A DNA stretch of 64,000 nt. Origin: Owenweeksia sp. (GTDB taxonomy: Bacteria; Bacteroidota; Bacteroidia; Flavobacteriales; Schleiferiaceae). A program made the position numbers and the translations under genes. The DNA is taken from assembly GCA_028277105.1 (NCBI GenBank), contig JANQHO010000120.1, positions 1 through 64,000 of the forward strand, written 5' to 3'. This document shows, piece by piece, positions 33,602 through 44,855 of this stretch. The first letter of the stretch is position 1. Every line of letters starts with the position of its first letter. The notes under the pieces were generated by a model. That model ran no database searches, had not been told where the DNA came from, and worked only from the letters and a program-made list of their open reading frames with translations.

Positions 33602-35725
33602 ATGCCCACAGCCCTCTCCTACATTGCTAAAAGCACTAACATTCCCAGCCCACAAATAGACGCTACCTTAAAGCTGCTGGATGAAGAGGCTACGATTCCC
33701 TTTATAGCCCGCTACCGCAAAGAAGCGACCGGAAACCTCAATGAAGTAGAAATAGAACAGATCCAAAAGCTGAACCGGGCTTTTACAGAGCTGGAGAAAC
33801 GCAAGGAATACATTTTAAAAACTATAGCTGAACAAGATAAACTTACCGCTGAGCTCCAAAAGGCAATTGAAGACTGTGTTGATCTGACCACTTTGGAAGA
33901 CCTGTATTTACCCTATAAGTCTAAACGGGAAACCAAGGCCGATAAAGCACGAAAGCAGGGCCTGGAGCCTTTAGCCAGGATCATTATGGCGCAGAACAAT
34001 CCGGATATTGATAGAGCTGCTGCTCAATTCACAAAGGGAGAAGTGAAATCTAAAGAAGAAGCTTTGCAGGGCGCCCGCTTGATCATGGCCGAATGGATGA
34101 ACGAACGGACGGCTCTGAGAGACCAGCTCAGGCGAATGATGCAGCGGCAGGGAAAAGTGACATCCAGCGTAGTAAAAAGCAAAACTGAAGAAGCGGAAAA
34201 ATTCAAAGATTACTTTCAATGGGAAGAAGATCTGTACCGCATACCGGCTCATCGCTTCCTGGCTATCAGCCGGGGTGAGAATCTGGGTTTTCTCAAATTT
34301 AAGATCACTTTGCCTCCACAAGAGGTAGAAAATAAAATACGGAGCTTTTTTATCCGGGGAAATAACCCCGAGGCTCATGAGCAGATCGAATTGGCGGCCA
34401 AAGATGCCTGGAAACGTCTCCTCCACCCAGCCCTGGAAAATGAGTTTAAGAAGCTGCACAAATTGAAAGCGGATGAAACTTCGATTAAAGTTTTTGGTGA
34501 AAATTTAAAGCAGCTTTTATTAGGTGCCCCCTTAGGTGAAAAAAGGATCATGGCTATTGATCCGGGCTTCAGAACGGGTTGTAAAGTGGTTTGCCTGGAC
34601 GAGACAGGCCATTTGCTATACAATGAGACCATTTATCCCCACCCGCCTAAAAACGAAAGCAAGCAGGCCATGAGGAAAATATCCACCCTGGCCAGTGCCT
34701 ATAAGATAGAGGCCATTGCTATAGGCGATGGCACAGCAGGACGGGAAACAGAGCAACTTATTCAGAGGATCACCTTTGACCGCAAGATATTTTCCTGTAT
34801 GGTGAATGAAAACGGGGCCTCGGTTTACTCTGCCTCCAAAGTGGCGCGGGAAGAATTCCCCAACTATGATGTTACCGTTAGAGGAGCTGTTTCTATCGGA
34901 AGGCGACTGATGGACCCTTTAGCTGAACTGGTTAAAATTGAGCCTAAATCAATAGGTGTAGGTCAGTACCAGCACGATGTTGATCAAAAATTGCTGAAGG
35001 AATCACTGGATCGGGTGGTGGAATATTCGGTGAACAAAGTGGGAGTGAACCTGAATACCGCTTCCAAACATTTGTTGCAATACGTATCGGGTTTGGGCAA
35101 AAGCCTGGCCGAACGCATAGTGGAATACCGGGAGGCAAACGGAAGCTTTACTTCTCTAGCCGATCTGAAAAAGATCAAAGGCCTGGGAGAAAAAGCCTTT
35201 CAGCAGTCTGCAGGCTTTTTAAGGGTTTACAAAGACCGTTTCAGTCTCGATCAAACAGGCATACACCCGGAGATCTACCGGGAAGTAGAACAGATCCTCA
35301 AAGCCCATAAGATCAAAATTGAAGAAGTAAAAGACAAGAAAGAGCAAATTGCCCAGATCGATTTTAAAAGCTATGTAAAGCCCCATCTGGGCGAACTAAC
35401 GCTGCTGGATGCCGGGGAAGAGTTGCTGAATGCAGGAGCAGACTTGCGGAAAAAGAAAAAGGCTTTTGATTTTGATCCCCAAGTAAAAAGTGTTGATGAT
35501 CTGAAAGTAGGCATGACTTTGCCAGGCCTGGTTTCCAACATCACCAATTTTGGGGCTTTTGTGAACATTGGCATTAAGCAGGATGGCCTGATACACGTTT
35601 CCAATATGGCCAATGAATTTGTAAAAGATCCCAATGACTACGTTCACCTGGGCATGGAAGTACAGGTTAAAGTACTGGACATTGACAAAGCCAGAAACCG
35701 CATACAGTTGAGTATGAAGGACTAA
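33602..35725 (+). CDS. tex: Tex-like RNA-binding transcription accessory protein
   Basis: 707 residues. Tex N-terminal helical domain (ATIPFIARYRKEATGNLNEV), central YqgF/RNase H-like domain around IMAIDPGFRTGCKVVCLDE, two helix-hairpin-helix motifs (LLQYVSGLGKSLAERIVEYR, LKKIKGLGEKAFQQSAGFL) and a C-terminal S1 RNA-binding domain (VGMTLPGLVSNITNFGAFVN). Tex binds nucleic acid and affects transcription. It ends in a 4-bp convergent overlap with the CHAT gene, so no terminator separates them. Confidence 0.95.
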   Translation: MPTALSYIAKSTNIPSPQIDATLKLLDEEATIPFIARYRKEATGNLNEVEIEQIQKLNRAFTELEKRKEYILKTIAEQDKLTAELQKAIEDCVDLTTLEDLYLPYKSKRETKADKARKQGLEPLARIIMAQNNPDIDRAAAQFTKGEVKSKEEALQGARLIMAEWMNERTALRDQLRRMMQRQGKVTSSVVKSKTEEAEKFKDYFQWEEDLYRIPAHRFLAISRGENLGFLKFKITLPPQEVENKIRSFFIRGNNPEAHEQIELAAKDAWKRLLHPALENEFKKLHKLKADETSIKVFGENLKQLLLGAPLGEKRIMAIDPGFRTGCKVVCLDETGHLLYNETIYPHPPKNESKQAMRKISTLASAYKIEAIAIGDGTAGRETEQLIQRITFDRKIFSCMVNENGASVYSASKVAREEFPNYDVTVRGAVSIGRRLMDPLAELVKIEPKSIGVGQYQHDVDQKLLKESLDRVVEYSVNKVGVNLNTASKHLLQYVSGLGKSLAERIVEYREANGSFTSLADLKKIKGLGEKAFQQSAGFLRVYKDRFSLDQTGIHPEIYREVEQILKAHKIKIEEVKDKKEQIAQIDFKSYVKPHLGELTLLDAGEELLNAGADLRKKKKAFDFDPQVKSVDDLKVGMTLPGLVSNITNFGAFVNIGIKQDGLIHVSNMANEFVKDPNDYVHLGMEVQVKVLDIDKARNRIQLSMKD

Positions 35726-38700
35726 CTTCTTTTTTTAGCCAGCAGATACCAGCTTATAGCACCTAAAATAAGGATCAGCACTATAGCTGTTAAATAAATA
35801 TGCGGGTACCCTCTATGAACAGGGCTGGTATCTCCACTAAGTGTATAAGCTGCCCAAAAGAAGGGGGCCGCATAAGCCTCCTCTCTGATAAAGGCCAATT
35901 TGCTGTTTCTCAATGCCTGGTGTTTGTCCAAACCTTTTTTAAGCTCTTTGTAAAACTCTGGCATAAAGCTTCCTGTTGATTGATCGGCTATTTTCCATAG
36001 GGTTGATATCTGGCTGCTTACCCCGGCAAAGGCCAATGCTTTGGATAAGCTTACCACTCCCATTCCTTTCTTCAGTTCACCTATGCCCGTTTCACAGGCA
36101 CTTAATACCACCAGCTCGCTATTGAGCTCCATCTGATACAGATCTTCTACAAAAAGTATATGTTCTAAATTTTTACCGGCAGAATCTGAAGAAAAAGCCA
36201 GATAGGAGTACACCCCTTTATTGTGGTAAGATTTACCGTGGGTGGCCAGGTGTAAGATACGGTAATGTTGGGCCGCATCTTCAAATGCCTTTTTGTTGGA
36301 TAGACTGTCTAAATAGAGTTTGGACTCATAAACCTTTGCTATAGATTCCGCTTCTAAAACATTGTATTTCAGTGGTTCTGATTTAAAGCGTAAGTCTGTA
36401 CGGTGCTTTTGCAGTAGTTCGTTTATATTGCTGTGATACGTAGGGGCAAAAACGGCTACTTTATTACTCAGATCTTTCTGCTCTTTATGTCGACTGCGGT
36501 ACATTTCATAGGCAGAAAACTGATAGGTGATCAGTTTCTCCCGTATCCAGTAAGGCATTTCTGTATAGCTTGCAGAGGCCGCAACCTCTTTCGTTAGTAA
36601 AGCCTCAAAAGGGATGAAATTTAGGACCCCATCAGCTACTATCACTACTTCTTTCCGCAAGTGATCCTCAACGGGTTTTATCAGTTTATTATAGAGCGAA
36701 TAAGCAAGGGATGTATATTGCTGTTTATTGGCATGGTATAGAGAATCACTTCCTTTAAAGGCCGTATAATAATCATAAATACTGCTGCGCAGTTGTTCTA
36801 CTTCTTCTTTCAGCGAAAAGTTAAGAAGCGCTCTATGAAGCTGAAAGTTATCTTCATTTACCACAAAAATGTAGAGCGTACTATCGCCAACAAAGTATTC
36901 CAGGAGAGTTTGGTCTGTCCGGAGCATCTGCTGGTATTGTTCGACACTAAATTGAAAAGGCTTACAGTTTAACTCGTAATAGGCGGGAATATCTTCTTTA
37001 ATGGCCAGTAGTAGCCGGGCCTGATCATTTTTTAAACCGAGCAGACTGTCTCTGTAATGCTGTTGCTGCTCTTTTATGTTTCCCTCATTTTTCTCCTCCA
37101 GTTCAAACAGCCGTTTTTCGCAATAGTTGATGGACTCTTTTATCTCTTCATAAACAATTAGTAAGCTGTCTGATAATAAGTTTGATACGGCATTGTAGAA
37201 CCCCTCTCCCAATTGCTTTTTTTTACTGCTTTCAGCAATAACAAAGGCCTCTTTTTGATAGTTGGGTAAACCCGCCTGGCTAAAAGTGTGAATGGCCTCT
37301 TCATAAGCATCGTAAATGCTCTCGTTGTAAAAATCACGGGCTTCAGCGTTTGTCAGCTGAACGTGCCGGGCCTCTATCGCTGCCAGTTTATACCAATGGT
37401 TTTTTAGTATAGAATCTTTATACGCAGGCATTTCTGGCTGCTTTTCAAAAAACAACTGCCGGGCTTCAAAATAAGTTTGAAGCTCTCTTAAATAGATAAC
37501 CTGTTGGAATACCAAAGGCTGCCCGGGTTTATAGTTAAATGCATTGGCAGCTTGCTCCAAGGCTTTTCCGGCTTTGGTAAACAGACCTTTTTTACTGTAA
37601 ATAACAGAGATCCTGCAGTAGAGATAAGCTATCCTGATGTGGTGTGGCGAGTACTTTTCCTTTAGGTGTCTGTAACTTTCCTGGTAATTCTTTAAGGCCT
37701 CATCCAGTTCCCCCATATCTTCATAAGCCATAGCCACTCTGAAAAAGCTATTCCCAATAGACGCACTGGAAGTGTCGGAAAGGGATTGATGCATGTTTAA
37801 GGCCTTAAGGTTAAAGAGCAGGGCTTCTTGATATTTCTTTTGCTTGCTCAGCACAGCCCCTATTTCCAGATAAGTACTTGCAGAATATTTGTTGTTTATT
37901 CCGTAGTGGTGGGTATAAATGGCAATAGCCTCATCAAAATAAAAGAGCGCCTCTTCAAACTGCCCCATATGGCTCTTAATAGTACCAATATTTGAATACG
38001 ATGCAGCTAATTTGGGATGCCTGGCTTCCAGTACAACTTTTCGTATTGCCAATGCTTCCTCTCCATAATGTAAGGCCTTATCCAGCTCAACCGTATAGAT
38101 GTACAGGGTTGATATATTGCTGTAAATACCGGCTAGCCAATCATTTTTTTTATTGGGAAAGTTAATTTGATAGGCATTTAGAGCTTTAAAATACAGCTCC
38201 TCTGCCCTGTTGTATTTCCCCAATGCTATATAAGCTCTTCCTGTATTTATATAAGGAGAGATCAGGCGTGGGTGATCGGCCCCAAGGTTCTCTGCCATAA
38301 GCTTTAAGCCCTCTTTAAGTTTTGGAATAGCCTTTTGGTGTAAACCCATGGAATTATAGGTTTTTCCTATGCTGATTTTACTCAGGGCAGTTGAACTATG
38401 CCTGGGGCCATTGAATTCAATGGAAAGCTGATGGGCTTTTTTAAAGCAGGCTAATGCCTCTTTATGCCTGAGTAAACTGCTATAAGCTGAACCCAGATTT
38501 TGGTAGGCCTTGGCCAGGCCCTTATCCCTGCCCAGTCTCAATCGGATATTTAGGGCAGCTTTCATGTTCTTTAAGGATTCTTCAGACTTTCCCATTTTAA
38601 CATAACAGGCTCCCATAATATTATATATCAAAGGCTTATATTTCAAACCTGATAAATCATCGGATAATTTCAAGGCTGTGTCTCCATAAGCCAGTGCTTC

Positions 38701-38949
38701 AGTATAATTTCCACTGTAAAACTTATTGGCGGCCAAAAGGCGGTAGCTTAAAACTCCCAGGCTGTCTTCTTTTTGAAAAGCTCTTTGTTTTACCAATTGA
38801 TAGCAGAGTTCTATTGAAGCACTGTACTTGCCTGCCGTATAAAGAGAATCTGCTTTGGAGTATATTATTTCATTGGAGAGCTTGGCCTGTGCCAAAAACA
38901 AATGTGGTAAGACTGAAAGTAAAAAGACTCCGTTGAAATACCTTCTCAT
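35722..38949 (-). CDS. TPR-CHAT protease homologue, periplasmic and membrane anchored
   Basis: 1075 residues. Signal peptide ~1-22 (GVFLLSVLPHLFLAQA). About ten TPR units span ~30-480 (YNIMGACYVKMGKSEESLKN, AKAYQNLGSAYSSLLRHKEA), then a helical coiled-coil region (~560-640). The CHAT caspase-like domain (~760-1040) has the dyad His904 in LHLATHG and Cys952 in LSACETG. A C-terminal membrane segment (IYLTAIVLILILGAISWYLL) ends in KKRS, so TPR and CHAT should face the periplasm. It overlaps the anti-sigma-like gene by 4 bp. It probably senses an envelope signal and cleaves a partner. Confidence 0.92.
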   Translation of the reverse strand: MRRYFNGVFLLSVLPHLFLAQAKLSNEIIYSKADSLYTAGKYSASIELCYQLVKQRAFQKEDSLGVLSYRLLAANKFYSGNYTEALAYGDTALKLSDDLSGLKYKPLIYNIMGACYVKMGKSEESLKNMKAALNIRLRLGRDKGLAKAYQNLGSAYSSLLRHKEALACFKKAHQLSIEFNGPRHSSTALSKISIGKTYNSMGLHQKAIPKLKEGLKLMAENLGADHPRLISPYINTGRAYIALGKYNRAEELYFKALNAYQINFPNKKNDWLAGIYSNISTLYIYTVELDKALHYGEEALAIRKVVLEARHPKLAASYSNIGTIKSHMGQFEEALFYFDEAIAIYTHHYGINNKYSASTYLEIGAVLSKQKKYQEALLFNLKALNMHQSLSDTSSASIGNSFFRVAMAYEDMGELDEALKNYQESYRHLKEKYSPHHIRIAYLYCRISVIYSKKGLFTKAGKALEQAANAFNYKPGQPLVFQQVIYLRELQTYFEARQLFFEKQPEMPAYKDSILKNHWYKLAAIEARHVQLTNAEARDFYNESIYDAYEEAIHTFSQAGLPNYQKEAFVIAESSKKKQLGEGFYNAVSNLLSDSLLIVYEEIKESINYCEKRLFELEEKNEGNIKEQQQHYRDSLLGLKNDQARLLLAIKEDIPAYYELNCKPFQFSVEQYQQMLRTDQTLLEYFVGDSTLYIFVVNEDNFQLHRALLNFSLKEEVEQLRSSIYDYYTAFKGSDSLYHANKQQYTSLAYSLYNKLIKPVEDHLRKEVVIVADGVLNFIPFEALLTKEVAASASYTEMPYWIREKLITYQFSAYEMYRSRHKEQKDLSNKVAVFAPTYHSNINELLQKHRTDLRFKSEPLKYNVLEAESIAKVYESKLYLDSLSNKKAFEDAAQHYRILHLATHGKSYHNKGVYSYLAFSSDSAGKNLEHILFVEDLYQMELNSELVVLSACETGIGELKKGMGVVSLSKALAFAGVSSQISTLWKIADQSTGSFMPEFYKELKKGLDKHQALRNSKLAFIREEAYAAPFFWAAYTLSGDTSPVHRGYPHIYLTAIVLILILGAISWYLLAKKRS

Positions 38950-39725
38950 CGTTCTGCTTCTACTTGATCGATCAGCTGGATCAATTGATCTGCTTTTTCC
39001 TTGATTTTCCCATCCTGTTTTTTAAGCTGGTTTAAAGCCGATCTGACCTTCTGGACATCTCTTAACTCCAGGTAATTAAGGCTTTCGTACCACCACAGGT
39101 ATATTTGTTGTTCTGTATTGGCTGTAGCTTTCATTTTTGACAAGGTCAATAACGATGCCTGGTATTCTTTTAATTCATAATGGCTGATAGCACTTAATAA
39201 CAGAGCATCCTCATAATAAGGATCATCAACGGTAACTACGCTGAAAAGCACTATTGCTTTCCGGTAGTTTTCTGACAGGAGCAAAGCATATCCATCTTTT
39301 AATATTTCTTCTTCTAGCACAGGGTTTTCTCCTCTGAGCAAACGATAATTCAGGTCTGGTGTCATCGTTTTGGCTTTGACCAGTAAATCGCTCCAGTTTT
39401 GCGGCTTATCTTCTTTTAACCAAAAGCTGGTGGCCCATAGCCCAACAAGCAATAAAATGCCGGCAGCCCATCCCAGGTAAGTCCGCTTAGCATAATTTTT
39501 TTTGCTCTTATCCCCCTGAAGGAGTTTCTCCCAGGCCATTACTCTTTCACGCTCTTCCGCAGAATTGTAAAATTCCCTGGCTGTTTTATGGGCGAGGTGA
39601 TAATCCAATACTTTTTGAGTGAGTACGGCATCCTGTTCCATCCTGCTTTCAAAATCTTTAAGCTCACTATCTGATAATAGAAAATTATAGTATCGCTCTA
39701 TCAGTGTTAAGTCCTTGTCTACCAT
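38946..39725 (-). CDS. Anti-sigma-like single-pass membrane protein with TPR-like domain
   Basis: 259 residues. The cytoplasmic part (1-80) begins LTLIERYYNFLLSDSELKDF and ESRMEQDAVLTQKVLDYHLA, the pattern common in Bacteroidota anti-sigma factors next to ECF genes. A membrane segment spans ~83-103 (YLGWAAGILLLVGLWATSFW). The periplasmic part (104-259) is helical with TPR-like repeats. It overlaps the sigma gene by 7 bp and the CHAT gene by 4 bp. I infer it holds the sigma factor at the membrane until its outer domain is cleaved or bound. No zinc motif of the ZAS type was seen. Confidence 0.8.
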   Translation of the reverse strand: MVDKDLTLIERYYNFLLSDSELKDFESRMEQDAVLTQKVLDYHLAHKTAREFYNSAEERERVMAWEKLLQGDKSKKNYAKRTYLGWAAGILLLVGLWATSFWLKEDKPQNWSDLLVKAKTMTPDLNYRLLRGENPVLEEEILKDGYALLLSENYRKAIVLFSVVTVDDPYYEDALLLSAISHYELKEYQASLLTLSKMKATANTEQQIYLWWYESLNYLELRDVQKVRSALNQLKKQDGKIKEKADQLIQLIDQVEAER

Positions 39726-40327
39726 AATTTCTTCATTTTTTTACGCTTGTTGAGTTGAAGAAAAATATAGTCTCCCAATTTCTTTTTGCAGTTGTATTTA
39801 GCCTGTACAATTGCTTCGTAACTTTTGTAACCTAAACTTTGCCATATTTCCCTAAGTCTTTGTTTGCCATTAATATGCAGTTCTATTATTTTTTTACACT
39901 TCTCAGAGATCTTATCAATAGCTTCAGCTAAAATCCTTTCAATAAATAGCTCCTGTTCTTCTTTGTATTTTACTTCTTCAGCAGTCATTGTTTCAGCATC
40001 CGCTATTTCTTTGTGTATACTGTTAATGTCTGTAATGTAAAACTTGTTTTGCTCCTGCCTTTTTTCCAGGCGCCACTCATTTCTACATATGGTATAGAGG
40101 TAGGCATTGCTATTGTGGGGAGCCGGGTTTCCCTCTCTGGTACAGTGTTCCCAAAGGATAGTCATTCCCCTCACAAAAAAATTACTCGCTTCTTTTTCAG
40201 ATCCGGTTAGCGATATTAAAGGCTTTTGCAGTGCCCCCCAGCTTTTCTGGAAGAAATAGTTAAAGGCTTTGGTATCGCCTCGAACAGCTTGCTTAAAAAC
40301 GGCATCCTCTTCATAAGAAATAGGCAT
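39719..40327 (-). CDS. ECF-type sigma-70 factor
   Basis: 202 residues from ATG 40327 (MPISYEEDAVFKQAVRGDTK); an upstream in-frame GTG at 40369 would add 14 residues. Region 2 spans ~10-75 (AFNYFFQKSWGALQKPLISL, SNAYLYTICRNEWRLEKR). Region 4 spans ~135-190 (ISEKCKKIIELHINGKQRLR, IWQSLGYKSYEAIVQAKYNC). It has no region 1.1 or 3, as expected for ECF. First gene of the operon; sits divergently from a secreted metalloprotease, a likely target. Confidence 0.9.
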   Translation of the reverse strand: MPISYEEDAVFKQAVRGDTKAFNYFFQKSWGALQKPLISLTGSEKEASNFFVRGMTILWEHCTREGNPAPHNSNAYLYTICRNEWRLEKRQEQNKFYITDINSIHKEIADAETMTAEEVKYKEEQELFIERILAEAIDKISEKCKKIIELHINGKQRLREIWQSLGYKSYEAIVQAKYNCKKKLGDYIFLQLNKRKKMKKLW

Positions 40328-40471
40328 TCTTCTGGGGTTTTTAGCTATAGTGAATAAAAGAAAACTCACGCTATAATTCCCAACAATACTAAGGAAAATC
40401 TAATTCTGATAATCTAAATTTTAAAATATTGTTATGTTTTCTCAATAGGGACTCTTTAGGGTAAAAGCATA

Positions 40472-40486: not shown

Positions 40487-40502
40487 AATCCTATTGTTTA
40501 CC

Positions 40503-43500
40503 ATGCACTTGAAAACTAAAATTATTAGCCTGTTAACGGTTTTGCTTAGTATGACATCACTTTTTGGGCAAAAAGAGTCTTTTTCTTTTGGATGTTATAC
40601 GGATTATCTCAGAGAACAGGAGCTAAAAGAAAGACCGGAACTCCAGCAAATATTTGATCAGCGCGATCTCAGAATCAGACAAAACCTGCCTGCTACACCA
40701 GCATCAGCGCAAAGAACCGCACAGAATACCAATCCTATTATCATTCCTGTTTTGGTTCAGATCATTCATAATAATGGTTCTGAAAATATTACTGATCAGC
40801 AGGTATTTAGCCAGATAACGGCTTTGAACAATGCCTTTCAGGGACAGGGAATAGAATTCTGTTTGGCAACAGCCAGAGCAGGTAATGCTCTGAACTATCC
40901 CGGCAGTACAACCCCTGGAATACTGAGAAGAGAAAGTAATTATACAGTCCATGCTCCGGGTACACAGGATGAAATAGACATGAAGCTGCTGTTTCCCAAT
41001 TTTGACCCTAATAATTATTTAAGAGTATGGGTAGTTGATAGTATTGTATCTGCTATACCCGGTATTATAATCGGAGGGTATTCCAGACTTCCCGGAGGTG
41101 TTAGTCCTGTACTTGACGGGGTAGTGGTTCGGGCTGATGCTTTTGGTGAAATAACTGCCTGTGGAAGTGGTTGCCATTTAAGCCAAAATAATACGGATGG
41201 TGATGTTATGGTACATGAAGTAGGACATTACCTGGGTTTGTATCACACCTTTGAGGGAGGTTGCAGTGGAATGACTACTACAGATTGTGATAGTTTAGGC
41301 GATCAGGTCTGTGACACTCCTCCTGTAGCTGTTTCAAACAGTGGCTGTCCTTCGGGAATGAACAGTTGTGCCGAATCCCTGGACTTTCCTGACCTGATTG
41401 ATAACTATATGGACTATACCAGTGAAGCGTGTAGAGCCTCCTTTACCACAGGGCAGGCAAATAGAATGTTAACGGCTATTTCACTGTACAGAAGTGGACT
41501 ATCAACAGCATTAAACCATGCGTATACAGGTATAAATTGTTCTGCGGGCTTGGCTGCTTTTTTTACAGCCAATAAGTATACTGCCTGTTTAAATGAAAAT
41601 ATCACATTCATAGCATTAAATCAATCGGGAGCTACTTACCACTGGGATCTTGGCGACACGGTATTATTTGGACAGGTTGTATCACATTCATTTGCATCAG
41701 CGCACAATCCGTTAGATGTAGAATTGACTGTTTTCCTGAATGGTGATTCTGCATCTACCAGCATTCCTTTTTTTATAGAAGATTGCTCACCAATTGTGGA
41801 TCCTAATTCCACCTGGTTTTTTGGAAGAGAAGATGGAGTGAATTTTACTTCAGGAGTAGCAGCATATGATAATAGTGCCAGGATCAACGGATCCATAAAC
41901 ACCAATGAGCCCTCTGCTATACAGGGTGATGCCAGTGGCAACTTATTGTTTTTTACAGATGGGCGTTTTGTATATGATGCCAATCATAACCTGGTAAATA
42001 CAAATCCTAATGATACACTTACATGCCATGAAAGCACCCTAAGAGGAACGCTAATCATTCCAGATCCGGCCAATGCCAATGAGTATTATATCTTTTATTC
42101 TACTGCTAACTTTCCATCAAACACACAACTAAGAGGATTTAGCTATAGTAAAGTATCGGTAGCTGCAAATGGAACGGTTAGCATGCTACCCAACCTCAAT
42201 ACTTTTGTTCCCCTCCCGCCAGGAGGATTTTTTAATACCCTTCCGGCAGGTGGCCTTGCTACCGGAGAAGCCATATCAGCTGTAGAATACTGTGATGGCT
42301 ACTGGTTATTATGTACAGCAGATTCTGCTTCTAAAAAGTTTCTTCTTACCTACCAGGTATCATCTACAGGCATTAGTTATGTAGGAGCCACGGACATCTT
42401 ATTAGCAGCTAGTTCTAATAATCGTGGAAGAACAGTTAATATTTGCCCTTCTCCAAATGGAAATAAAGTAGCTGTATCCAGTATAAATCATCATTCTGGA
42501 GAATCAATAGGGCTTAGAGTACTTGAATTTGACAAACAAACAGGCTCGTTGGGTAATATTTTACTGGAAGATAATTTCATTGGAGTTACAGCACAAGCAG
42601 GGTACTATGGATTGTCTTTTAGTCCCAATTCAAAACTATTATATGCTAATACCCGGACATCACATTTGCAAATTGTTCAGTATAACCTAAATTCTGCATC
42701 ACCGCTTTCAACGCGTACTGACATCGGGTATAAATATGTAGCCTCTTCAGGGCAAATGCAGTTGGGGCCTGATAACAAAATTTATATAACAGGTTATTCC
42801 AGAAGAAGATTAGCCGTAATTCACCGACCAAATGAAGTAGGCCTAAATTGCCTTTACAGTGATTACGGCCCAACTAAACCATTCACCAGTGGAGGATACC
42901 TGGGCGCCCTGCCTAATATTATAGATGCCACTATTAGCAATACCTATGATAATACCATAAGTAGCCAAATAGTAAACTGCACCACTTTCCGGTTTCAACC
43001 CAACTTATGCGGACAAACATTTAGCTGGAATTTTGGAGATGCAGCTTCAGGCGCTAATAATACAGCCAATGGTTCCCTGGTGGAGCATAACTTTTCCGGC
43101 CCTGGAACTTACATTGTTTCTGTAGCCAATAATTTTGGAACAACCATTAGTGATACTATTGTAATAGATCCTGTACCTGCTCCCGAAATCATTGGAATTA
43201 CCTGCGACAGCTTAATGCAATTGACCAATTACTCTACCAACAGCTCAGCAAGTTCTTATCAGTGGACTGTAAGTGGCGGTACAATTGCAGGTCTTTCTAC
43301 CATTTCCAAGGTGGATGTGGTGTGGAATACTTTCCCGGCAACGACCACATTAACTGTTACAGATGAAAACGAGTGCTCCAACAGTAGTTCTTTAACCGTT
43401 ACAGATTGTTCCGATAATTGTCCTTGCGACCTGAATGCTGGTTTTGTCATCAGTAAAAACGGATGTGAGATCAGTTTTCGCAGAAGGAGAATTTCTGCCT

Positions 43501-44855
43501 TATGCGGAACACTCTTTTCTACCTGGACCATTCAGGGAGCTGCTGCGCCATTATATGGCAGTAGCGGAAGCTATACTTTTCCACAATCGGGTAATTATGA
43601 GATCTGCCACCGCATAGAAGTGAGAGGTCTTTTTGATCAGGTAATCTGTTTTGCTGAAACATGTGAAATAGTAGAAGTAATCGACTGTTCCCCTGGATCT
43701 TGTGAAGATGAATGCGAAATAGCCCCTGATATTAAAGTAGAGAGAAAGAACTCATGCACTTTTAATTTTGAAGGACTAAATAATGGAAAAGATTGTGCTT
43801 CACAACAGTATGAATGGCTCATTTACAACAGTAACGGAACTTTAGTCAATCAGTTGCTAAGCAAAGATCTGTTGAATTACACTTTTCCGGCATCCGGTAT
43901 GTACACTGTTTGTTTAAACATTTTTGTGGAAAAAGAAGACGGCAGTTTAAAATGTGAAAAGCAAAAATGTGTGGAGGTAGAAGTGGAATGTGAGCGCTGT
44001 GACAAGGAGTGTTCCATTAAACCAGTGATCAAAGTAGAAAAAGAAAACTCCTGTGAGTTTGATTTCTTTGGGTTTAACGATGATACTCCATGTCCGGCTC
44101 AGATTTTTGAATGGACAATTTACAATGGTGCCGGGCATATTGTGGCTACACATACCGGTCAGGCCTTTAACAGTTTCTTATTCCCGGTTTCCGGAGTTTA
44201 CAGAGTATGCCTTGAGATCTATGTATTAGACGATAAGGGAATGAAGAAATGCAAAGAAATGGAATGCATCAACCTGGAAGTTTCCTGCGAATCATGCGAG
44301 AAAGAGTGCGATGTGAGTCCGGATATCAAGCCAATTAGTGAAGATAATTGCACTTTTGACCTCAGAGGAATAAACAATGGAGCTCATTGCCCCTCTCAGG
44401 TTTATCAGTGGCATATTTATGATGAAAACGGCAATTTAATTCATTTTGCCGTAGGTGGGGATCTTCTCAACTACACCTTCCAGGGACAAGGTCCTTTTAA
44501 GATCTGTTTAACCATTGTTGTATACAAGTCAGATGGAAGTATAAAATGCCAAAAAGAAAGGTGTATAGAGCTTGGAGATCTTTGTTCAGAAAGCGCTGGC
44601 TTAATTGCAATTAATGCTACTCCTAATCCGGCTGATCATCAATTGACTTTTGATGTAATCAACAAAATACCAGATGTATCTACAGGTAAAATATCCTTAT
44701 ACGATATGTATGGAAATATTGTGATGGAGAAAACTATTTTGCTCCATGAAAAACTTACAGTTGATGTTAGTAGTTTACCAATAGGTAGCTATTTCTATCA
44801 GCTGACAACGGATAAACATAATACACCTATGAAAACTATAATTGTAGTTCGTTAA
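40503..44855 (+). CDS. Secreted M43 (pappalysin-like) metalloprotease with propeller, PKD-like repeats and T9SS signal
   Basis: 1450 residues from ATG 40503 (an in-frame TTG is three codons earlier). Signal peptide, propeptide, then a zinc protease with HEVGHYLGLYH (HExxHxxGxxH, first His ~238) and Met-turn DNYMDYTSEACRASF, as in cytophagalysin. Residues ~440-790 form a propeller-like domain (NSTWFFGREDGVNFTSG) related to the four proteins at 49860-56806. Several PKD-like and Cys-rich repeats follow (~850-1360; DIKVERKNSCTFNF repeats three times). The T9SS type A sorting domain ends it (ATPNPADHQ). A strong terminator follows. Confidence 0.93.
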   Translation: MHLKTKIISLLTVLLSMTSLFGQKESFSFGCYTDYLREQELKERPELQQIFDQRDLRIRQNLPATPASAQRTAQNTNPIIIPVLVQIIHNNGSENITDQQVFSQITALNNAFQGQGIEFCLATARAGNALNYPGSTTPGILRRESNYTVHAPGTQDEIDMKLLFPNFDPNNYLRVWVVDSIVSAIPGIIIGGYSRLPGGVSPVLDGVVVRADAFGEITACGSGCHLSQNNTDGDVMVHEVGHYLGLYHTFEGGCSGMTTTDCDSLGDQVCDTPPVAVSNSGCPSGMNSCAESLDFPDLIDNYMDYTSEACRASFTTGQANRMLTAISLYRSGLSTALNHAYTGINCSAGLAAFFTANKYTACLNENITFIALNQSGATYHWDLGDTVLFGQVVSHSFASAHNPLDVELTVFLNGDSASTSIPFFIEDCSPIVDPNSTWFFGREDGVNFTSGVAAYDNSARINGSINTNEPSAIQGDASGNLLFFTDGRFVYDANHNLVNTNPNDTLTCHESTLRGTLIIPDPANANEYYIFYSTANFPSNTQLRGFSYSKVSVAANGTVSMLPNLNTFVPLPPGGFFNTLPAGGLATGEAISAVEYCDGYWLLCTADSASKKFLLTYQVSSTGISYVGATDILLAASSNNRGRTVNICPSPNGNKVAVSSINHHSGESIGLRVLEFDKQTGSLGNILLEDNFIGVTAQAGYYGLSFSPNSKLLYANTRTSHLQIVQYNLNSASPLSTRTDIGYKYVASSGQMQLGPDNKIYITGYSRRRLAVIHRPNEVGLNCLYSDYGPTKPFTSGGYLGALPNIIDATISNTYDNTISSQIVNCTTFRFQPNLCGQTFSWNFGDAASGANNTANGSLVEHNFSGPGTYIVSVANNFGTTISDTIVIDPVPAPEIIGITCDSLMQLTNYSTNSSASSYQWTVSGGTIAGLSTISKVDVVWNTFPATTTLTVTDENECSNSSSLTVTDCSDNCPCDLNAGFVISKNGCEISFRRRRISALCGTLFSTWTIQGAAAPLYGSSGSYTFPQSGNYEICHRIEVRGLFDQVICFAETCEIVEVIDCSPGSCEDECEIAPDIKVERKNSCTFNFEGLNNGKDCASQQYEWLIYNSNGTLVNQLLSKDLLNYTFPASGMYTVCLNIFVEKEDGSLKCEKQKCVEVEVECERCDKECSIKPVIKVEKENSCEFDFFGFNDDTPCPAQIFEWTIYNGAGHIVATHTGQAFNSFLFPVSGVYRVCLEIYVLDDKGMKKCKEMECINLEVSCESCEKECDVSPDIKPISEDNCTFDLRGINNGAHCPSQVYQWHIYDENGNLIHFAVGGDLLNYTFQGQGPFKICLTIVVYKSDGSIKCQKERCIELGDLCSESAGLIAINATPNPADHQLTFDVINKIPDVSTGKISLYDMYGNIVMEKTILLHEKLTVDVSSLPIGSYFYQLTTDKHNTPMKTIIVVR

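Follow-up and report, generated by a model that had tools for sequence, protein, structure and literature searches.

Why should a caspase-fold protease be encoded together with a sigma factor and the membrane protein that may restrain it? The question is raised by a 64,000-nucleotide stretch of Owenweeksia sp. DNA (contig JANQHO010000120.1, positions 1 to 64,000; hereafter the window), on whose minus strand (35722-40327) three coupled genes encode an extracytoplasmic function (ECF) sigma factor, a single-pass anti-sigma-like membrane protein, here named Mid, and a 1075-residue protein that combines tetratricopeptide repeats (TPRs) with a CHAT protease domain. An earlier note, made from the sequence alone, gave the gene overlaps as 7 bp (sigma/Mid) and 4 bp (Mid/CHAT), figures that are exact in both the open reading frame (ORF) listing and the sequence, and proposed that a CHAT protease outside the inner membrane acts on Mid to free the sigma factor. 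Gene linkage, domain identity, membrane topology, conservation of the catalytic dyad, and co-variation between the Mid linker and the S1 pocket of the protease, all observed computationally, support this proposal, and from them we infer cleavage of Mid and release of the sigma factor, together with a cut site, a second cut, a feedback, and an activating signal. We think it probable that the trio is a transmembrane anti-sigma switch operated by a periplasmic protease of the caspase/separase fold, with the following parts in the window.

39719..40327, minus strand: ECF-type sigma factor, 202 residues from its ATG; an alternative GTG start at 40369 is possible.
38946..39725, minus strand: Mid, membrane anti-sigma-like protein, 259 residues, encoded downstream of the sigma gene in all triplet loci (AF2 model, pLDDT 85.7).
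39489..39725, minus strand: Mid residues 1-79, putative cytoplasmic domain of the class I anti-sigma type with its zinc ligands lost (AF2 helices, relatives).
39417..39488, minus strand: Mid residues 80-103, transmembrane helix, for which the positive-inside rule gives N-in/C-out (hydropathy, AF2, sequence).
39330..39335, minus strand: Mid Arg131-Gly132, predicted CHAT cleavage site in a disordered periplasmic linker (conservation, co-variation with CHAT).
38952..39317, minus strand: Mid residues 137-258, periplasmic TPR domain (VIA-align Z ~15 to TPR domains over 131-258).
35722..38949, minus strand: exported, membrane-anchored TPR-CHAT protease, 1075 residues (Pfam TPR_12 and CHAT; AF2 model, pLDDT 84.6).
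38890..38949, minus strand: CHAT protein residues 1 to about 20, signal peptide (hydrophobic N-terminus).
37540..38826, minus strand: CHAT protein residues 42-470, TPR superhelix (Pfam, AF2, fold search).
35830..36705, minus strand: CHAT protease domain, residues 749-1040 (PF12770, E=1.5e-54).
36238..36240, minus strand: catalytic His904, H in 181/181 aligned CHATs.
36094..36096, minus strand: catalytic Cys952, C in 181/181 aligned CHATs.
36352..36354, minus strand: Glu866, a predicted acid of the S1 pocket, on helix alpha-1 (strongest partner of Mid R131).
36100..36102, minus strand: Ser950 (Cys-2, loop L4), replaced by Asp in the group with Lys linkers; predicted S1 position.
35983..35985, minus strand: Asp989, just past the conserved Trp985 after beta-5 (L5 region), predicted S1 position (CHAT position second-strongest for R131).
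35737..35793, minus strand: CHAT protein residues 1053-1071, C-terminal membrane anchor with KKRS after it (hydropathy).

Whether these genes belong together at all can be judged from other genomes. The earlier note had made its proposal depend on the trio recurring in related genomes, and sigma, Mid, and CHAT genes indeed occur together in 80 distinct loci, from many Bacteroidota families and one member of the Gemmatimonadota. Their arrangement is divergent in 32 of these loci, convergent in 28, and co-directional in 20, and the best tree (with weakly supported branches) requires 16 changes of arrangement; that the neighbourhood has been kept while gene order changed points to function rather than to read-through. 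The host genome, at 3.9 Mb, has about 22 clear ECF-like genes, a density at which a given gene would have some sigma gene within 6.5 kb about 7% of the time. A chance association of unrelated genes, which predicts linkage at about that level, is thus refuted by the several arrangements of the 80 loci, and we give it practically no credence.

Within the order, the linkage largely follows the membrane anchor of the protease. Among 296 genomes of the same order, CHAT genes occur in 35, with 59 matches in total, and their surroundings were searched with profiles built from the window proteins and their relatives. For the 61 CHAT ORFs of this set, a sigma gene of the same type was found in the fetched region for 49 and Mid for 39; three anchored CHATs with no match in the region have Mid 6-13 kb away. 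Anchored CHATs nearly always have these neighbours, and 5/7 of those lacking the C-terminal anchor have no sigma or Mid gene nearby, with the anchorless, partnerless CHATs L061, L067, L106, L113, and L116 forming a built-in control. When the search was instead started from Mid across the phylum, a CHAT gene lay within 6.5 kb in most of the 40 fetched loci. A scan of the contigs of named genomes, for which a narrower CHAT profile was used because the full CHAT alignment is too divergent as a query, added members of the Flavobacteriaceae (Winogradskyella, Aquimarina, Tenacibaculum, Dokdonia, and Algibacter), many Saprospiraceae and Chitinophagales, one Bacteroidales metagenome-assembled genome (MAG), and one Gemmatimonadota MAG. 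In L211, an Acidobacteriota MAG, the same trio occurs with another kind of anti-sigma protein: there, a sigma gene and the gene of a membrane protein matching zf-HC2 above the curated cut-off face a CHAT gene.

Other neighbourhoods vary the theme. In a deltaproteobacterial MAG, the gene between sigma and CHAT (L187, 2761-4440) encodes a membrane protein that bears a trypsin domain and the motif HLRSCPAC. In Tenacibaculum and its relatives (L190, L188, L071), as many as five genes for exported CHATs stand in tandem; in Aureispira, many anchored CHATs lack a sigma gene nearby. Two CHAT-less Flavobacteriaceae (G206, G228) retain remnants of the system, an in-frame fusion of sigma and Mid (L136, 6005-6976) and a Mid gene without sigma (L151, 6407-7138); these two cases hint that sigma decays once CHAT is lost. 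One genome has several C14 caspase genes in a row beside a sigma-Mid pair and no CHAT gene (L126, 4254-5453; L253). C14 caspases as general substitutes for CHAT were rejected, as 19 other fetched C14 caspase regions lack the sigma-Mid pair.

Are the first two proteins a sigma factor and its inhibitor? The matches of the window sigma to TIGR02985 (E=1e-11) and TIGR02937 (E=2e-8) both fall short of the curated cut-offs, which makes it a divergent ECF factor. That the small gene is a non-functional fragment was considered and rejected, since the family profile matches the full ECF sigma structures SigW, SigL, and RpoE. For Mid, the earlier note's description of a single-pass protein with a periplasmic TPR-like half holds: hydropathy places the transmembrane segment at 84-102 and AF2 a helix at 80-103, and residues 137-258 have a TPR fold. 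In the AF2 model, N-terminal helices at 4-13, 19-31, 33-54, and 56-69 precede the membrane, and a loose linker of low pLDDT separates the transmembrane helix from the TPR helices that start at 137. This agrees with the plan of the class I anti-sigma domain (ASDI), in which a bundle of three helices binds sigma-4 and a fourth helix binds sigma-2 (PMC7406223), and the Mid gene adjoins that of an ECF sigma factor, as is also expected of this class. The zinc motif Hx3Cx2C, found in about half of the class I members (PMC7406223), is absent from the window Mid, which, because the motif is optional, does not disqualify it. At the same columns, the motif is present in the Mid relatives L125, L132, L206, and L223 (Mid profile matches of 3e-41, 9e-37, 4e-24, and 5e-12), and zf-HC2 matches in Mid relatives lie below the curated cut-off. 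Fold searches with Mid returned TPR proteins only; no solved anti-sigma structure surfaced, which is not evidence against such a domain. Judged from its predicted fold and its zinc-motif-bearing relatives, the N-terminus of Mid is a class I anti-sigma domain, predicted to bind the sigma factor.

The third protein, the product of the only CHAT gene in the window genome, matches PF12770 with 185.8 bits (cut-off 24) over residues 749-1040, after many TPRs. In fold comparison, its AF2 model aligns with Csx29 over 268-1042 (Z ~30) and with the protease domain of separase over 324 residues at 3.3 A (Z ~25), so that the His904/Cys952 dyad stands on a caspase-haemoglobinase fold, as in other members of the CHAT family. 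The dyad, the signal peptide-like N-terminus, and the C-terminal hydrophobic helix (1053-1071) that the earlier note had reported are all present, and the two outcomes that it had named as damaging, loss of the dyad in homologues and a CHAT domain facing the cytoplasm, are not seen. Both catalytic residues are kept in all 181 CHATs whose alignment covers the two positions. A simple hydropathy rule finds an export signal at the N-terminus of 88 of the 89 CHATs linked to Mid, nearly all of the corresponding Mids have a transmembrane helix, and most CHAT relatives have a C-terminal hydrophobic helix followed by a tail rich in K and R. Because of these export signals and anchors, the protease domain most likely faces the periplasm, the same side as the TPR domain of Mid.

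Does the protease cut Mid or merely touch it? Between the transmembrane helix and the TPR domain, Mid has a single conserved position, Arg131 (R in 83/102, K in 7/102), followed by a small residue, mostly G or S. The Arg131 column is the seventh most conserved of the whole protein and yet falls in an unstructured stretch of the AF2 model. In an unbiased scan of 1469 Mid by 2730 CHAT residue features, in which the CHAT side comprised the last 430 residues, the strongest pair is Mid R131 with CHAT E866 (table 64/1/4/11; Fisher 1.5e-9, ancestry ignored); CHAT D989 and S950 likewise rank high for R131. Three elements determine S1 specificity in proteases of clan CD: helix alpha-1, loop L4, and loop L5 (PMC4357240). 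In the CHAT model E866 lies on alpha-1, and S950 stands two residues ahead of the catalytic Cys, in L4; D989, which follows the invariant Trp985 past beta-5, is by our own assignment in the L5 region. The departures from the Arg/Glu866 pairing fit a specificity code: among the 12 CHATs without E866, 9 pair with Met linkers and the other three, which carry Asp950, with Lys linkers, and 4/5 Lys linkers pair with D950, with L086 combining a Lys linker with both acids. The co-variation of Arg131 with S1-pocket positions is evidence for cutting over binding alone and, with about three clades behind it, predicts cleavage at Arg131|Gly132 of Mid.

The same data bear on the idea that CHAT is a co-sensor that sits on the TPR domain of Mid without cutting it and frees the sigma factor through a conformational change, an idea to which the presence of TPR domains in both proteins lends some appeal. 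A non-catalytic role would permit loss of the dyad, which is instead invariant, and the co-varying positions are those of the S1 pocket rather than TPR surfaces, within a scan limited to the C-terminal 430 residues; the invariant dyad makes such a role unlikely, and we rate the co-sensor idea as very improbable.

In the switch that we favour, the cytoplasmic class I anti-sigma domain of Mid would retain the sigma factor at the inner membrane, and its periplasmic TPR domain would be tethered to the transmembrane helix by the flexible linker. The TPR-CHAT protein would be exported and held in the inner membrane by its anchor, leaving the protease domain on the outer side. An envelope signal, for which the protein's own TPR superhelix or surface proteins encoded nearby are the probable sensors, would activate it there. 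Activated CHAT would make a site-1 cut in the linker after Arg131 and so shed the TPR domain, upon which an RseP-type site-2 protease and cytoplasmic proteases would release the sigma factor. The window genome does encode RseP (TIGR00054 at 254 bits), the site-2 protease expected in regulated intramembrane proteolysis of the RseA type. In several lineages, the sigma factor seemingly drives the CHAT-containing operon, which would give positive feedback.

This feedback is suggested by a two-box motif, GGTAAC-N17-GATA, that looks like an ECF promoter and was seen 38 times, against 1 expected, upstream of genes beside sigma in Flavobacteriaceae and Saprospiraceae. It precedes CHAT-containing operons too, which suggests that sigma drives its own protease, and with a spacing of 15 it stands ahead of sigma itself in L138 and L140. 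Other genes with the motif upstream, all beside sigma, encode a lipoprotein, a 99-residue membrane protein, and PKD proteins (L089, L092, L096, L099, L101, L107, L214, and others). The motif (GGTAAC-N15-17-GATA) before CHAT-containing operons, and before sigma in two loci, is also what would be expected if CHAT were merely an output, a periplasmic protease transcribed by the sigma factor for use on other envelope proteins, with Mid sensing alone and shared regulation explaining the linkage; some sigma-Mid pairs without CHAT within 6.5 kb also fit such an arrangement. It leaves unexplained, however, the pairings of R131 with E866, of K131 with D950, and of Met linkers with loss of E866, as well as a conserved Arg in a disordered linker. 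We consider an output-only CHAT unlikely, though deserving of some weight; it may be partly true as feedback, and is to that extent compatible with the switch.

Several observations weigh against the switch. The residue co-variation rests on about three clades, tests on independent pairs lack power, and by background-corrected mutual information (MI-APC) the R131-E866 pair ranks only 876th of 89088. E866 is also conserved in 64/65 CHATs without a sigma gene nearby and is thus not specific to the sigma/Mid partnership; conversely, R131 persists in most Mids without CHAT within 6.5 kb, and three loci (L158, L160, L161) break the rule, with E866 present and R131 absent. Gene-level distance correlations are weak (0.15 for CHAT versus periplasmic Mid, 0.04 for CHAT versus sigma), and the promoter-like motif is absent upstream of the window sigma, where the sequence was read by eye.

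The genes around these loci tend towards the cell surface. In the window, a large secreted protein with a HEVGHYLGLYHTF metalloprotease-like motif, PKD-like repeats, and a C-terminus resembling those of type IX secretion, all by sequence, is encoded divergently from sigma (40494-44855, plus strand) and is a possible sigma target. In Flavobacteriaceae, a retropepsin-like aspartic protease gene immediately follows CHAT (L083, 3439-3876; L094, 3375-3836; L102, 6892-7329, the last matching PF13650). Right before CHAT on the same strand lies a PKD-DUF7619-DUF7849 gene (L083, 6601-8553; L102, 2227-4182; L139, 3727-5697), whose product is a candidate surface sensor or partner. Given that CHAT proteases are at work both in gasdermin systems and in type III-E CRISPR (PMC10028731, PMC9729208), the trio could also be imagined as an anti-phage or cell-death module of the Craspase or gasdermin kind. 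The protease is exported, however, its neighbours are surface proteins, no Cas7-11 or gasdermin is recognised alongside it in the ORF listing, and PADLOC shows no defence model beyond generic TPR; we find a defensive role hard to credit.

What would such a switch mean more broadly? By published profiles, a class I anti-sigma gene lies near only 6% of Bacteroidota ECF sigma factors, compared with 32% over all phyla (PMC7406223), and the control of most Bacteroidota ECF sigma factors is an open question on which the trio bears: Mid would represent a zinc-less, TPR-bearing anti-sigma family that published profiles may miss, and CHAT the protease that switches it. The conserved Arg131 of the Mid linker and its co-variation with CHAT S1 positions are new here, and the limited set of literature searched yielded no description of CHAT proteases that are exported and encoded with a sigma and an anti-sigma factor; as far as that literature shows, CHAT proteases would here have their first known role in envelope signalling. 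The logic of a separase-like protease that cuts the inhibitor of a sigma factor was previously known only from one rare CRISPR system, and the trio suggests a possible source for the sigma/anti-sigma part of Craspase. More generally, a wide range of membrane anti-sigma proteins in Bacteroidota and some other phyla could have exported TPR-CHATs as their dedicated site-1 proteases, with a P1/S1 code (Arg with Glu866, Lys with Asp950, Met with no acid) pairing each protease with its own linker; Craspase would in that case be a relative of the switch that acts in the cytoplasm and is triggered by RNA. We hold this generalisation to be evenly poised between true and false. The trio itself offers a sharp prediction that can be tested, the Arg131|Gly132 cut in the window Mid together with the specificity code.

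How, then, does the trio relate to systems already known? In the RseA-DegS-RseP pathway, sigma-E is controlled by regulated intramembrane proteolysis. Shared with it are a membrane-spanning anti-sigma protein, a periplasmic site-1 cut (proposed here), and RseP in the genome; in contrast, the site-1 protease here would be a clan CD cysteine protease instead of a PDZ serine protease, and the periplasmic part of the anti-sigma protein is a TPR domain. There is no gene for a DegS-type PDZ serine protease in the operon, to which the search was confined. With separase (C50), the CHAT protein shares a helical-repeat superhelix followed by a caspase-fold protease and, as predicted here, a P1 Arg (PMC4357240, PMC9729208), but it is bacterial and exported, its proposed substrate is another one, and no securin-like inhibitor was identified. 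A neighbourhood of another kind, with an EACC2-caspase, an ECF sigma factor, and the TPR protein DUF1822, is described in part of the account of Kaur et al. 2021 (PMC8195603), and likewise unites a caspase-fold protease, an ECF sigma factor, and a TPR protein. It differs, as far as that part of the account goes, in having another caspase-fold family and in a proposed activation by autopeptidase activity rather than by anti-sigma cleavage; EACC2 and DUF1822 were not found in our trio, and Mid has no DUF1822 match.

The closest parallel is with type III-E CRISPR, in which Csx29 cuts Csx30, the inhibitor of the ECF-like CASP-sigma (PMC10028731), at 427-429 or, in another system, after L407 (PMC10028731, PMC9729208). 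The two systems share the TPR-CHAT fold (Z ~30; sequence E ~1e-7) and, as proposed and predicted here, an ECF sigma inhibitor as substrate and cleavage in a flexible loop. The Csx29 profile alignments begin after helix alpha-1, so that its equivalent of Glu866 cannot be read from them. Whereas Craspase has a cytoplasmic TPR-CHAT protein, that of the window carries a signal peptide and a C-terminal anchor, the sigma inhibitor is a membrane-spanning protein, and Arg is predicted at P1. No Cas7-11 (gRAMP) gene occurs among the neighbouring ORFs and no RNA guide is seen at the locus, where a repeat array was not searched for. The description of the system as CRISPR-free in the earlier note holds for the locus; the genome has a cas1 gene on another contig (G000:C80:21340-22032). 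With no Cas7-11 gene seen near it, a membrane-spanning inhibitor, and an exported protease, the trio is not a member of the type III-E Craspase systems, but it is similar to them in working.

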